Assembly: GCF_002251835.1 (NCBI RefSeq)
Contig: NZ_NOXV01000303.1
Location: forward strand, 29,763-63,864
Source of the DNA: Flavobacterium cyanobacteriorum
Lineage (GTDB): Bacteria; Bacteroidota; Bacteroidia; Flavobacteriales; Flavobacteriaceae
DNA length: 34,102 nt
Direction: 5' to 3'
A program made the translations under genes and the position numbers. The notes below the pieces were generated by a model. The model was not told the DNA's origin. It was given only the letters and a program-made list of their open reading frames with translations, and searched no databases. This document shows, in pieces, positions 14,164 through 21,430 of the stretch (position 1 is its first letter; each line of letters opens with the position of its first letter).

Positions 14164-16536
14164 ATGAAAACCAGGAAGACCACAGGAAAAAATTTTCAAT
14201 CCTACAACAAACTGATTGAAAGGCTTGGCGCACAGGATGCCGTAAAACCTGTTGTAAATATATTGCCTGAAATAGTAGTAGTAACCACATTTCCACCAAG
14301 GGAATGTGGTATTGCAACATATTCAGAAGACCTCATCAGGGCGCTAAAAAAACACTATATAGACTCCTTTTCTATAAAAGTGTGCGCGGTTGAAAATACC
14401 AATGAAAGGCATAATTATGATTATACTGACGTGAAATATGTGCTGAATACTTCCAAACCAGACTCCTATAAGTTATTTTCTGAACAGGTAAATCGTGATG
14501 ACAACGTTAAAGTAGTGCTCATACAGCACGAATTTGGCCTATTTGCTGAAACGGCAAACCATTTTAACACGTTTATAAATGACATCAACAAGCCGCTTTC
14601 GCTGGTATTCCATACCGTGTTGCCAAATCCTGACAGAGCGCTTAAAGACAATGTCTGTTATATGCTGGACCGTGCCGATTCGCTCATTGTAATGACACAC
14701 AATGCTGCTAATATCCTTAAGCGCGATTACGCAGCAGATGCTGAGAAAATTACTGTTATCCCGCACGGTACGCACCTTGTGCCACATACTGACAAGGCGC
14801 AACTAAAAAGGAAATATGGTTTTGAAGGCAGGAAAATACTATCAACATTTGGCCTTTTGAGTTCCGGAAAAAGCCTTGAAACTACCCTTGACGCGCTGCC
14901 CGAAGTGATTAACAAATGCCCAGAAGTTCTGTTCCTGATAATTGGGAAAACACACCCTACAGTAGCCCTGAATGAAGGAGAACACTACAGGGACTTCCTT
15001 AAACACAGGATACAGGAACTTGGCCTTGAGGAAAATGTAAAATTCATCAATAAGTATGTAGCCCTCGATGAACTTCTGGAGTATTTGCAAATGACCGATA
15101 TTTACCTGTTTACTTCCAAAGACCCTAACCAGGCCGTAAGCGGTACATTTTCATACGCGCTCAGTTGCGGCTGCGCCATCATATCTACACCGATACCTCA
15201 TGCAAAAGAAGTATTAGCCGGCGATACGGGTATAACCTTTGATTTTGGAGACTCACAACAGCTTGCCGGTGCTATCAATACCTTGTTGTTTGACGTGGAG
15301 TTAAGGCATACAATGGTGTTAAACGGCCTGCATAAAATAGTGCATACCGCCTGGGAAAATTCGGCTGTCGCCCATGCTAAAGTGTTGCAGAAAGCAGCCG
15401 GAGAAGGGCTTGGGCTGCATTATAAAAACCCGGTGGTAAACCTTAGCCACATCAAGAATATGACTACCGATTTTGGCATATTGCAATTTTCCAAAATAAA
15501 TAAGCCGGATATTGAGTCGGGCTACACCCTTGATGATAATGCGCGGGCGCTAATAGCTATGTGCCAGTACTACAAGCAGTACCGTAATACAGAGTCGCTG
15601 AAGTACATCAAAACGTACCTGAACTTTATCGATTATTGCCAGCTGGAAGACGGCAGGTTCCTTAACTACGTAGATTTTAATTCCAACTTTACCCCGCAGA
15701 ACCGGAATGAAAACCTTGAAGACAGCGCGGGCCGAGCCATGTGGGCATTAGGCTATGTGGTGTCTTTATCTAAAATACTTCCGGAAGAAATTGGCAAAAA
15801 AGCCGAAGGGATGTTCCAGAAAACGCTGTCGCTTACTAAAAACATCCACTCTACAAGGGCTATGGCTTTTATTATCAAAGGCCTGTATTACTACAACCGC
15901 CATATTAAGGATGTAGATAACCTTTTATATATAAAACTTTTTGCCGACAGGCTGGTGCAGATGTACCGCCACGAAGCTGATACAGAATGGAAGTGGTTTG
16001 AAGGATACCTGACGTATGCCAACAGCGTACTGCCTGAAGCATTGCTGCTTTGCTACGCTATAACCGGCAATGAAACCTACAAGGCCATAGCTAAGGAATC
16101 ATTTGATTTCCTGCTGTCAAAGATATTTACCGATAATTCCATCAGGGTGATATCGAACCGCGGCTGGTACTTTAAGGGGCGGAACAAAGAGCTATTTGGC
16201 GAACAGCCGATAGACGTGGCTTATACCATACTGGCCCTCAGGAAGTTCCATGACATCTTTAAAGATGAAGAATACCTCAGCCGGATGGAAAGCGCATTTA
16301 ACTGGTTTCTTGGCAACAACCATCTCCAGCATATTGTTTATAACCCCTGTACGGGAGGTTGTTTTGACGGGCTTGAGGAGCACAGCGTAAACCTGAACCA
16401 GGGTGCGGAGTCCACTGTAAGCTACCTCATGGCCAGGCTGACTATCAATAAATATTTTGGCAATCCTGAGGGCAGTTATTTCCGCAGGAGGAACAGGGCC
16501 GACCAACTGGCAGCAATGGACGGACTCCATTTCTAA
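14164..16536 (+). CDS. GT4-family glycosyltransferase with C-terminal alpha-helical (toroid-like) domain
   Basis: 790 residues, cytosolic, no signal peptide. Residues about 37-405 form a GT-B fold of the GT4 type: FPPRECGIATYSEDL (acceptor-side glycine loop), VLIQHEFGLF, VIPHGTHLVPH, LSTFGLLSSGKSLETTLDAL, and nucleotide-sugar region SGTFSYALSCGCAIISTPIPHAKEVL with the Glu of the E-x7-E type motif partly visible. Residues about 415-785 are a repeated helix-hairpin region (GYTLDDNARALIAMCQYY, LEDSAGRAMWALGY, WKWFEGYLTYANSVLPEALL, QPIDVAYTILALRKF) resembling an alpha/alpha barrel of the kind used by glycoside hydrolases and lyases. The fusion suggests transfer plus carbohydrate binding or hydrolysis. 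Donor and acceptor are not known; mannan-type oligosaccharide metabolism is one possibility. Confidence 0.85.
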   Translation: MKTRKTTGKNFQSYNKLIERLGAQDAVKPVVNILPEIVVVTTFPPRECGIATYSEDLIRALKKHYIDSFSIKVCAVENTNERHNYDYTDVKYVLNTSKPDSYKLFSEQVNRDDNVKVVLIQHEFGLFAETANHFNTFINDINKPLSLVFHTVLPNPDRALKDNVCYMLDRADSLIVMTHNAANILKRDYAADAEKITVIPHGTHLVPHTDKAQLKRKYGFEGRKILSTFGLLSSGKSLETTLDALPEVINKCPEVLFLIIGKTHPTVALNEGEHYRDFLKHRIQELGLEENVKFINKYVALDELLEYLQMTDIYLFTSKDPNQAVSGTFSYALSCGCAIISTPIPHAKEVLAGDTGITFDFGDSQQLAGAINTLLFDVELRHTMVLNGLHKIVHTAWENSAVAHAKVLQKAAGEGLGLHYKNPVVNLSHIKNMTTDFGILQFSKINKPDIESGYTLDDNARALIAMCQYYKQYRNTESLKYIKTYLNFIDYCQLEDGRFLNYVDFNSNFTPQNRNENLEDSAGRAMWALGYVVSLSKILPEEIGKKAEGMFQKTLSLTKNIHSTRAMAFIIKGLYYYNRHIKDVDNLLYIKLFADRLVQMYRHEADTEWKWFEGYLTYANSVLPEALLLCYAITGNETYKAIAKESFDFLLSKIFTDNSIRVISNRGWYFKGRNKELFGEQPIDVAYTILALRKFHDIFKDEEYLSRMESAFNWFLGNNHLQHIVYNPCTGGCFDGLEEHSVNLNQGAESTVSYLMARLTINKYFGNPEGSYFRRRNRADQLAAMDGLHF

Positions 16537-18231: not shown

Positions 18232-19239
18232 CTACCTTGCTTTGCCATCAGGCCCCGGGGCAGTAGCTATACTGATGTACGGCTGCAGGAACGGGGCCAG
18301 GCTGAAATGATGGAGTTTCTGTGGGACATCAATAAATGGTGCTTTAGCAAACTTTTCATTGGTAACATAAAAATCTATGCCATTATTGCCGGCAATGCCT
18401 TCTATTTGGTGGAATGACAGGCCCAGCCGGAGCTTCCTTTTATTGCCCGAAAAAAAATCATGCCCGTTGAAGCCATATAGCAGGTACAGGAATGGCTGCA
18501 AAAATGTACTGTAACCGGTAAGGACTACAATCTTTTTATCTTCAATATATACCGCACCTGTAATCAGGCCTTGTGTATCAAATGTTGCTTTCAATGTTGC
18601 CTGGTAAGTACCCGGCTCTTTAGGCAATACGTATAGCGACGTCTTTTTGCTTATCCATTGTTTGGTAAACAGGTACAGGCTGTCTGCAGAGGCGATGAGT
18701 GCTTCACAATCAAAATCGGTGTGGTTTGCCTCCTTGGCTGTATAATCGGTTTGGCCGGCATAACTAAAATTTATGTTTGCCGTAACGGGTTCGCCATTCA
18801 GCAGTGAAGTTTTCGCTACCTTTATTATCCTTAAGTCAGTACGGTTTCCGTTTGCATTGTTACCAAAATCGCCGATGTATATATAATCCTCATCCTGTGC
18901 CACATCTTCCCAATCCTGGTTGCTTACCCCGTTTATGGGAATAGGCTGCCCCACTGCGCCGGTACCCGGATCAATAGCATATAGGTTTATATCCGTATCG
19001 TCATTATGCGTATATAAGCTACTGCCCCAGAGAATAAGGCCGGATGTCTCCTTGAGCACAGGGGAAAGGCCTACCGAAGCCACCGGGTTTACCGAAGCTG
19101 GAGGGTAAGTGCAGCTACCGTCATTAATGGTAGCATCAGGGTTGTAATTACCGGCCAGCGGATCAGTACAGCCGGGTACCTGGGCCACGGCGGTAACTGC
19201 TGAGAATAATAAAACCCATACTATTGCATTTATCTTCAT
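18232..19239 (-). CDS. Exported protein with a GCTDP...DGSC calcium-loop-like repeat
   Basis: 335 residues from ATG 19239 (MKINAIVWVLLFSAVTAVAQ, SPI signal). The frame continues upstream to 19284 but that extension precedes the signal peptide. Residues about 22-42 contain GCTDPLAGNYNPDATINDGSC, a short Asp/Asn-rich module frequent in secreted Bacteroidota proteins. The remainder (about 55-330) looks like a beta-propeller-type region (SGLILWGSSLYTHNDDTD, DYIYIGDFGNNANGNRTDLRI, DCEALIASADSLYLFTKQW). No catalytic motif is recognised and no type IX secretion C-terminal domain is visible. It probably acts in the periplasm or at the surface. Confidence 0.8.
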   Translation of the reverse strand: MKINAIVWVLLFSAVTAVAQVPGCTDPLAGNYNPDATINDGSCTYPPASVNPVASVGLSPVLKETSGLILWGSSLYTHNDDTDINLYAIDPGTGAVGQPIPINGVSNQDWEDVAQDEDYIYIGDFGNNANGNRTDLRIIKVAKTSLLNGEPVTANINFSYAGQTDYTAKEANHTDFDCEALIASADSLYLFTKQWISKKTSLYVLPKEPGTYQATLKATFDTQGLITGAVYIEDKKIVVLTGYSTFLQPFLYLLYGFNGHDFFSGNKRKLRLGLSFHQIEGIAGNNGIDFYVTNEKFAKAPFIDVPQKLHHFSLAPFLQPYISIATAPGPDGKAR

Positions 19240-19456
19240 TGTAGAATCCTGTAGTTTAGCACTAAAATATGCATTCTGATTCATTGAAGATATTGTTTTA
19301 GTAAATTTTAATATTAAAACGTTCCCCTGTATAGATAGTAAGTTCCCCGGCTTCGTATACCATCCTACCTCAATATTTCTTTAAATAATTATAATATAAT
19401 GTTAAGAATGGCTGGTAGGGCTTCATAGCTTCTGCAAGATTTGTAATTTTAGGTTC

Positions 19457-21430
19457 ATGAGCTATGGTATTAATCATAATCTTAAAAAATCTGCCTGTAT
19501 AGGTTTTTTAGGAACCATTTTTACGGCCAATGTATTTATGAACTGTAGTGCCCGATTTACAGAACAGGAAATTTATTTTGAACTTCCGGTAAAAAAAACC
19601 ATGAACGACCTGCTGCTCGGCTATGATAGCGATGGCGATAAACGTATTACTAAAGATGATGCCCCCCAGAAAGATTACTTTATGATAAGTACTAAAGGCG
19701 ATACCGTAATTCTCCGCAATACTTATCACATCAGTAATTTGCTGCAGGAACTTGCCATAGCTGCAGACAGCGCACAGGAAACGCTAAGTATAAACCTCAG
19801 GCAAATACAGGAGCCGCCAGCCGAACGTATATCGCGCCGCATCCGCACACATTTTTGGGATGACCTTACGCGTACTGTTGATGAAGCCGGATTAGACCGT
19901 ATTGCCACCGATGAAAAAATGCATGATGCGCACCAGAGGGTATATGTACCCTATTATGACAGTACGGGCATTGCCTATTTTCTGGAGCTGCAAAAGCGCC
20001 GGAGGAACCTTGAAGTGAACATCCTTCCCCCTGTAATCACACCGGAATATGTGCGTTCCATAAATAGCAAACCGGGAATATTAACATTGAAAATCAAAAA
20101 TGGGAAAGGCGTACCTTTTGTAGTACCCGGCGGGCGGTTTAATGAAATGTATGGATGGGACAGCTACTTTGAAGGTGTTGGCCTGATTCTCGATGGGCGG
20201 GCTGACCTTGCAAAAGCTATGGTTGACAATTTCTGTTACCAGATAAAATTTTACGGTAAAATACTAAATGCTAACCGTTCCTACTATCTTACCCGGACAC
20301 AGCCGCCATTCCTCTCATCATTTATCAAAGAAGTATATGAAGCCATGCCTGTTAAAGATAAAAGGTGGCTTGCAGAAAGCCTGTCCATGGCTATACACGA
20401 ATATGAAACGGTGTGGATGCAGGGCAAACGGTTTACGCCACAGACGGGCCTTAACCGCTATTATGCTGACGGCCTTGGCATTCCGCCAGAAACAGAACCA
20501 GGGCATTTCAGGGAAGTGCTTGATAGCTATGCAAAAAAATATAACCTGAGCATTTTGGAATTTGAGGAACAATACAAGAGTGGCAGGATCATGGATGCCG
20601 GGCTAGACCGCTACTTCGTCCATGACCGGACATTGCGCGAAAGCGGCCATGATACATCATGGAGGCTGGATAACGTGGCAGCAGACCTGAATTGTGTTGA
20701 TGTTAATGCCCTTTTATATAAATATGAGGCCGATTTTCAATATTTAATTGCAAAATATTTTGACAATGAATTTACTGCCGAAAACGGCAATACTTACACC
20801 ACCGGCTACTGGCATGAAAAAACAGCAACGCGCAAACTGCTTATGAAACAATACCTATGGGACAAAACAGCACAATGTTTTTATGACTACAATATAAAAA
20901 AACAACGCCAAACGGATTTTATGTCGGCTACAAATTTTTTCCCGTTGTGGGCAGGCCTTTGTACAGAAGAGGAAGCCGCTGCCATAGTACCCCTGCTCCT
21001 GCATGAGCTGAAAGCAGCGGGAGGTTTCCTGGCCTCAGGCCGGGACAGCACCTATAAATACGCTACAAATAACGTGCAGCGCCAGTGGGACTACCCAAAC
21101 GGATGGGCCCCTCACCAAATGATGCTGTGGAAGGGCCTGCTACATTATGGCTATAAAGCTGAGGCCCGTGAAATGATATACCGATGGCTGTATATGATTA
21201 CACAAAACGCGGTAGACTATAATGGCACAATACCGGAAAAATATGATGTAGTGAAAAGTACGCACAAGGTTTATGCTGAATATGGCAATGTTGGGGCTGA
21301 GTTTGCCTACATAACCCGGAGCGGCTTCGGCTGGATGAATGCCTCGTACCAGCTCGGCCTCAGCCTGCTTGAACCGGAATATGTGCAAAAGCTAAATAAT
21401 TTGGAAAAGCCGGAAGCCATATTTAAATAG
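19457..21430 (+). CDS. Trehalase (GH37), fungal neutral-trehalase-like, exported
   Basis: 657 residues; hydrolyses trehalose to two glucose. Residues 11-30 are hydrophobic and end in FMNC, a possible but atypical lipobox. Residues about 49-105 contain an EF-hand-like loop D57-S-D59-G-D61-KRI-TK-D67 and HISNLLQELAIA, the layout of the calcium-binding domain of fungal neutral trehalases. Residues about 120-645 are the GH37 catalytic barrel, with signatures PGGRFNEMYGWDSYF (225-238) and QWDYPNGWAPHQ (543-554). Catalytic residues by family alignment are Asp399 (RESGHDTS) and Glu594 (PEKYDV). KILNANRSYYLTRTQPPFL and DGLGIPPETEPGHF are also strongly neutral-trehalase-like. It stands alone; no trehalose transporter or synthesis gene is near. 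Confidence 0.92.
   Translation: MSYGINHNLKKSACIGFLGTIFTANVFMNCSARFTEQEIYFELPVKKTMNDLLLGYDSDGDKRITKDDAPQKDYFMISTKGDTVILRNTYHISNLLQELAIAADSAQETLSINLRQIQEPPAERISRRIRTHFWDDLTRTVDEAGLDRIATDEKMHDAHQRVYVPYYDSTGIAYFLELQKRRRNLEVNILPPVITPEYVRSINSKPGILTLKIKNGKGVPFVVPGGRFNEMYGWDSYFEGVGLILDGRADLAKAMVDNFCYQIKFYGKILNANRSYYLTRTQPPFLSSFIKEVYEAMPVKDKRWLAESLSMAIHEYETVWMQGKRFTPQTGLNRYYADGLGIPPETEPGHFREVLDSYAKKYNLSILEFEEQYKSGRIMDAGLDRYFVHDRTLRESGHDTSWRLDNVAADLNCVDVNALLYKYEADFQYLIAKYFDNEFTAENGNTYTTGYWHEKTATRKLLMKQYLWDKTAQCFYDYNIKKQRQTDFMSATNFFPLWAGLCTEEEAAAIVPLLLHELKAAGGFLASGRDSTYKYATNNVQRQWDYPNGWAPHQMMLWKGLLHYGYKAEAREMIYRWLYMITQNAVDYNGTIPEKYDVVKSTHKVYAEYGNVGAEFAYITRSGFGWMNASYQLGLSLLEPEYVQKLNNLEKPEAIFK

Follow-up and report, generated by a model that had tools for sequence, protein, structure and literature searches.

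Trehalases of the EF-hand type, which share the domain layout of the yeast neutral trehalase Nth1, occur in Bacteroidota in two forms, and the one encoded in the stretch of Flavobacterium cyanobacteriorum DNA analysed here (34,102 nucleotides, the window) has an N-terminal leader. Our main reading, to which we assign a probability of roughly 0.7, is that this enzyme (hereafter the query) is exported and probably lipid-anchored, while a leaderless cytosolic form, paired with an MFS permease, is used by relatives in whose genomes no trehalose synthesis was detected. The query would act outside the cytoplasm, splitting environmental trehalose into glucose for uptake by the cell, and we infer that export would hold the enzyme apart from the trehalose made by the cell itself, avoiding a futile cycle. 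The gene of the leaderless trehalase lies directly after that of the MFS permease and is probably co-translated with it; the permease would probably bring in trehalose, and the leaderless enzyme would act in the cytosol. The pairing of the leader with trehalose-6-phosphate synthase (TPS) would arise because export separates the enzyme from home-made trehalose, and the MFS-coupled leaderless form would account for the remaining carriers.

The query is a predicted alpha,alpha-trehalase, as judged by homology and by its catalytic pair (Table 1), and exceeds the curated cut-off of the GH37 profile PF01204 (456.6 bits versus 21). Its tblastn match to E. coli TreA, which is not known to have an EF-hand domain, covers query residues 220-641 only. 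In a phmmer search of solved structures, Nth1 was matched over query residues 40-640 (529 bits, E 1.2e-157), whereas two bacterial trehalases of the periplasm gave E 8.3e-38 and 1e-36 (the best with 134 bits) and the Arabidopsis trehalase E 6e-33; the NCBIfam TreA/TreF models scored 186, 165 and 148 bits, under their cut-offs of 512, 941 and 560. Stretches aligned between the query and Nth1 (PDB 5jta) include KILNANRSYYLTRTQPPFL/KILNANRSYYLCRSQPPFL, GLGIPPETEPGHF/GLGIPPETESDHF, RESGHDTSWR/RESGHDTTYR and SNLLQELAIA/SNLLQELTIA. The AlphaFold model of the query, built with 14 sequences, has a mean pLDDT of 83 and reaches 85-95 over residues 41-110 of the EF-hand block; Nth1 is the top match in a structure search with this model, whose residues 36-657 superpose on 5n6n over 600 residues (2.6 A, 40% identity), the EF-hand domain included. 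The alignment and the superposition bear out the fungal neutral trehalase layout proposed in the earlier note, as the search values do its remark that long stretches are closer to Nth1 than to TreA or TreF. Like the query, Nth1 (PDB 5n6n, 5jta, 5nis, 5m4a) joins an EF-hand-like domain to a GH37 barrel with the catalytic pair, but the query comes from a bacterial host, has a leader and is without the N-terminal stretch of 14-3-3 phosphosites. Ahead of the aligned part lie 39 residues in the query, mostly leader, and 96 in Nth1; since the reported phosphosites Ser20-Ser83 (PMC10847541) precede Nth1 residue 97, where the alignment begins, the fungal regulation by these sites is, as judged by the alignment, not carried over to the query.

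Table 1. Features of the EF-hand-type trehalase gene, in window positions
Feature	Position	Strand	Remarks
GH37 trehalase gene, EF-hand (yeast Nth1) type	19457..21430	+	657 aa, ATG start, gene complete
Leader, residues 1-30, last residue Cys30 (M-[N/S]-C)	19457..19546	+	Probable lipoprotein export signal; helix 9-29 with low pLDDT; hydropathy 1.86
EF-hand-like calcium-binding domain (predicted), residues 40-113	19574..19795	+	Nth1 alignment from Nth1 residue 97
EF-hand loop DSDGDKRITKDD, residues 57-68	19625..19660	+	Pairs with Nth1 D114-D125
GH37 catalytic domain, residues 113-637	19793..21367	+	PF01204 E 1.7e-136
Catalytic Asp399 (= Nth1 D478)	20651..20653	+	By alignment; Asp in 119/119 relatives
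Catalytic Glu594 (= Nth1 E674)	21236..21238	+	By alignment; Glu in 119/119 relatives

The EF-hand-like loop that had been noticed at residues 57-67 is present, with its bounds corrected by Nth1 114-125 to those of Table 1. The aspartates at loop positions 1, 3 and 12 are common to the query and Nth1, and position 5 is Asp in the query and Asn in Nth1; the loop ligands are conserved, and the query may bind calcium. Among 119 relatives, 4 have a residue other than D or N at position 3, and 3 a residue other than D at position 5 (L048 being unaligned there). Three related leaderless proteins (L178, L179 and L180) have lost both positions, and their calcium site is therefore probably dead; in L163 position 3 is lost. 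The profile check with PF07492, the calcium-binding domain of neutral trehalases, which the earlier note had advised, came out divided: the query gave no match at E<=10, and the profile matched 110 of 117 relatives at E<=0.01 (40 of the 47 others bearing a leader and all 70 leaderless ones), with Nth1 as positive control scoring 61.1 bits versus a cut-off of 25. The matches among the relatives argue that the domain is homologous and that the copy of the query has diverged. Across the query's genome, the best place for the profile (E 0.47) lies on a contig other than that of the trehalase. As sole test of the type, PF07492 was rejected, since it misses the query. The papers listed in a search for this domain concern fungi, by their titles.

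Many relatives start about 6 residues ahead of the position of query residue 45, and others carry a hydrophobic leader. A leader was called when a start codon lay at least 20 residues upstream and a 12-residue hydropathy of at least 1.5 was reached; the rule was loosened a single time, after a stricter version (cut 1.9) had missed the query and two further proteins with obvious leaders. TPS was sought in the carriers' genomes by PF00982 profile search, with E. coli as control. After removal of the ambiguous L104 from a set of 119 (106 distinct proteins with TPS state plus 13), 118 distinct proteins remain, 48 with a leader and 70 leaderless: leader and TPS go together in 47, a leader stands alone in 1, neither is found in 70, and a leaderless enzyme beside TPS in 0. 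The pattern was first seen in a sample of the phylum, where the EF-hand type (>600 bits) occurs in 20 of 395 Bacteroidota genomes (19 of 394 without the query's own), the remaining trehalase carriers being of intermediate or ordinary type; TPS was found for 8/8 leader carriers and 0/12 others, the genome of L104 being among the 12. It was seen again in the genomes behind the best 80 loci, of which 50 were chosen (28 leader, 22 other; 47 genomes) and the other 30 are all leaderless: TPS is present in 26/26 leader genomes, three of them with proteins identical to phylum-sample ones, and in 0/21 others. It was then predicted before the search of a family sample (57 of 397 genomes matching at E<=1e-100, own genome included), which gave 8/8 leader and 0/45 leaderless carriers, the 45 including a fragment (L181) that enters neither the distinct-protein counts nor the trees. 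Ten of these 53 predicted genomes (3 + 7) have proteins identical to those of the best-80 set and are thus in effect the same genomes; with such repeats removed, 5/5 and 0/38 are new, G606 in this new part being without its N-terminus. In a sample of a second class, 20 of 178 genomes carry the EF-hand type, 13 of them new, with TPS in 11/12 leader and 0/1 leaderless carriers; a further draw of nearly the same genomes of this class gave no extra carrier. The single exception, G941, has a leader and no TPS was found in its genome, which is 95% complete; TPS is present in all eight of its genus-mates tested. In the query's own genome, the TPS gene (C252:7839-9212, in a 724-aa open frame) and the trehalase (C273) lie on different contigs.

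Synthesis by TreY or TreS was considered as an alternative route in cells whose trehalase has no leader and was rejected: TreY exceeded its cut-off in 3 and TreS in 4 of 80 genomes, all within the 30 leader genomes tested, and neither did in any of the 50 non-leader genomes (one of them that of L104). This last protein, from genome G280, has a leader by the rule, but from a non-ATG start, and is the only one of the 119 with neither a clear leader nor an MFS neighbour; no TPS was found in its genome, and its upstream neighbour gene has kin beside the trehalases of a leader-bearing genus (g90). It was treated as leader in the 106-protein set and the simpler-model tree, as leaderless in the neighbourhood survey, and stands outside the 118.

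The two forms also differ in their chromosomal neighbourhood. An MFS gene (PF07690) lies directly upstream on the same strand in 70/70 leaderless loci (for instance L044:4782-6008) and in 0/48 leader loci, of which 45 had at least 1.1 kb of flank for this check and 3 had short flanks. At the leaderless loci no more than 198 nt separate the end of the MFS match from the position of query residue 45 in the alignment, and in 66 of the 70 the trehalase starts between -20 and +40 nt from the MFS stop, an overlap of 4 nt being both the median and the commonest case. Any leader at such starts would need to be coded within the MFS gene. Leaderless loci often add a PfkB kinase, glycosidases and a second MFS gene, which distantly resembles sucrose symporters, below the model cut-off. 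In nine leader loci of Robertkochia, Aquimarina and related bacteria, a sodium:solute symporter gene (PF00474) lies just before that of the trehalase, and its product may take up the glucose that the enzyme sets free. One chromosomal site, from queG to a malic-enzyme gene (both Pfam-checked), hosts both forms, with the leader form in Salinimicrobium, Robertkochia and Aquimarina and the MFS-leaderless form in Dokdonia and Maribacter; further genes there are putatively ruvA, ruvB, sprA and P450. No MFS gene is found among the genes flanking the query trehalase in the window, where both neighbours were checked: the downstream one encodes a DUF2231-like membrane protein (Pfam score below cut-off), and the upstream one (18232-19284, minus strand, 350 aa) gave no Pfam or NCBIfam match at E<=0.001. 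The upstream protein has a hydrophobic stretch close to its N-terminus. Elsewhere in the window (14164-16536, plus strand), a 790-aa protein carries a glycosyltransferase-1 domain in its N-terminal half and a second half without family.

The number of independent events behind these counts is small. The tree requires four leader changes and five TPS changes; among independent pairs with contrasting leader state, TPS differs in the same direction in 4/4 (in 3 for 7 of 200 pairings), and in the five pairs that differ in TPS, the leader differs in the same direction in 4 and not at all in 1. With about four independent switches, a sign test gives p 0.125, so the tip counts overstate independence and 118 proteins are not 118 independent cases. 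This scarcity of switches is what leaves some room for the idea that the leader, the missing MFS neighbour and TPS are a combination inherited or acquired jointly in a few lineages, without functional link. In G943, moreover, some 50 nt separate the end of a 748-aa TPS frame from the trehalase open frame (L243) that follows it on the same strand (G943:C22:8500-14500), a possible synthesis-degradation operon, and such adjacency makes joint transfer possible. Yet by their coordinates the two genes are close only in G943, with separate contigs in the query's genome, for which reason tight TPS-trehalase linkage was rejected as the cause of the pairing, and sister clades carry different forms at the same site. 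The separate branch of ordinary GH37 enzymes also leans the same way as the EF-hand type, with exceptions. In 48 TreA/TreF-type proteins from 46 phylum-sample genomes (48 of 49 places, the contig-edge fragment G223 being omitted and the intermediate group excluded; the start of L206 is doubtful), with the leader judged from the first two ATGs at a hydropathy cut of 1.9, 18 have leader and TPS, 8 leader only, 3 TPS only and 19 neither (Fisher p 1.3e-4, kinship uncorrected); a looser cut gives 18, 10, 3 and 17 (p 1.0e-3, kinship uncorrected). Leaderless enzymes beside TPS are thus rare in this control and leaders without TPS common. Taken with these observations, joint inheritance without function is an unlikely explanation, if one that keeps some weight. 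The excluded intermediate GH37 group (L112-L118, L122), whose matches begin past the EF-hand domain, has leaders; TPS is listed for G062, G067 and G212 and not listed for the leader-bearing G108 and G116. These exceptions, like G941 and the ambiguous L104, weigh against the main reading.

The hydrophobic N-terminus noticed in the earlier note proved real, and under the export reading it would be a lipoprotein leader. Residues 9-29 form a helix in the model, and the best 12-residue hydropathy, counted from the ATG, is 1.86. The M-[N/S]-C motif at Cys30, conserved in 8/8 rows of the nearest clade, suggests that the query is a lipoprotein, the motif not being a classical lipobox; many other leaders finish in lipobox-like or AQ-like sites, as judged by eye. 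The leader of the query is the least hydrophobic among 37 leader rows, falling below the first cut of 1.9, and its helix has low model confidence, which would fit a mere inner-membrane anchor or a misread start, with the enzyme on the cytosolic side; against the conserved cysteine motif, the cleavage-site-like ends of other leaders and the pairing of the leader with TPS, this is improbable. Export is harder to reconcile with one reported phenotype: F. rivuli is described as using trehalose and F. subsaxonicum as set apart from it on trehalose use (PMC4572689), and both have the leader form (L026 and L014, respectively), so that the F. subsaxonicum enzyme, beside a reported lack of trehalose use, counts against the export reading.

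Regarding its origin, the EF-hand trehalase of the query is not an isolated transfer. Relatives were found at no fewer than 584 loci in genome contigs, the best 80 of these at least 584 all carrying Bacteroidota names; the type is spread across ten family codes within the phylum, and other Flavobacterium hold relatives 71-74% identical to the query. Plasmid and phage collections gave no EF-hand-type match among the matches listed, in which the sole plasmid match covering 80% of the query, a Granulicella intermediate, begins at query residue 113. A quick LG+C20 tree, in which TreA/TreF served as outgroup, unites the EF-hand rows with Nth1 (support 99) and places the query among them, outside the bacterial TreA/TreF group, as the earlier note had anticipated. 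Nth1 pairs in this tree with the leaderless row L108, of unusual composition, inside the bacterial rows (SH-aLRT 95); a constraint keeping all bacterial rows together was not rejected (AU p 0.15), and a simpler-model tree puts Nth1 near the base, its position unresolved and with a long-branch warning. Since Nth1 is the only fungal sequence in these trees, no direction is claimed between fungi and bacteria; in a published GH37 tree, fungal trehalases are reported to form a clade separate from the bacterial ones (PMC4498783). Of the two origins that had been suggested, inter-kingdom transfer or a shared old family, the ten family codes make a recent transfer from fungus to Flavobacterium unnecessary. 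That a fungal neutral trehalase gene recently entered Flavobacterium is suggested by the query lying far nearer Nth1 than TreA/TreF, but is highly improbable given its close congeneric relatives, the number of related loci, their spread over the phylum and the placing of Nth1 as a long branch among or beside bacterial rows.

Similar arrangements are known from other trehalases. E. coli TreA is, as the query would be, an exported GH37 enzyme in a cell that makes trehalose, via OtsA/OtsB (PMC11228248; PMC10969515), although it belongs to another GH37 branch with far lower similarity; it shows the same logic of export apart from home-made trehalose (PMC10969515). E. coli TreF is a GH37 enzyme whose cytosolic place the leaderless relatives would share; it too lies on another branch, and TreF and TPS are reported in one cell (PMC10969515), a combination unseen in the 70 leaderless carriers. 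In Fusarium sacchari, the neutral-type GH37 trehalase FsTreA is described as having a signal peptide and residing mainly at the cell surface (PMC13274424), but it is fungal, and its abstract draws no link to lost synthesis or to a paired transporter (PMC13274424).

In the literature covered (titles and abstract openings, with few subscription journals), no bacterial EF-hand trehalase and no leader/TPS pairing appeared among the matches listed, and a nearly strict switch between two forms within one calcium-domain family seems new. The whole-genome survey covers one phylum, Bacteroidota, in which the layout behind the Pfam 'Neutral trehalase Ca2+ binding domain' (PF07492) is widespread, and in which the site of a degrading enzyme is tied to the synthesis of its own substrate with 1 exception in 118 proteins. 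The MFS family upstream of the leaderless trehalase is a candidate trehalose importer. More tentatively, and at odds we put below even, bacteria would alternate between two solutions within this one family, an importer-coupled enzyme in the cytosol where trehalose is not made and an exported one free of the importer where it is, sometimes at the same site. Fungi, whose enzyme is cytosolic and beside TPS, would meet the same conflict through phosphorylation, 14-3-3 and calcium; their enzyme would be descended from a leaderless bacterial one to which regulation, and not a leader, was added. The family would offer a natural test bed for futile-cycle avoidance, by relocation in bacteria and by regulation in fungi.
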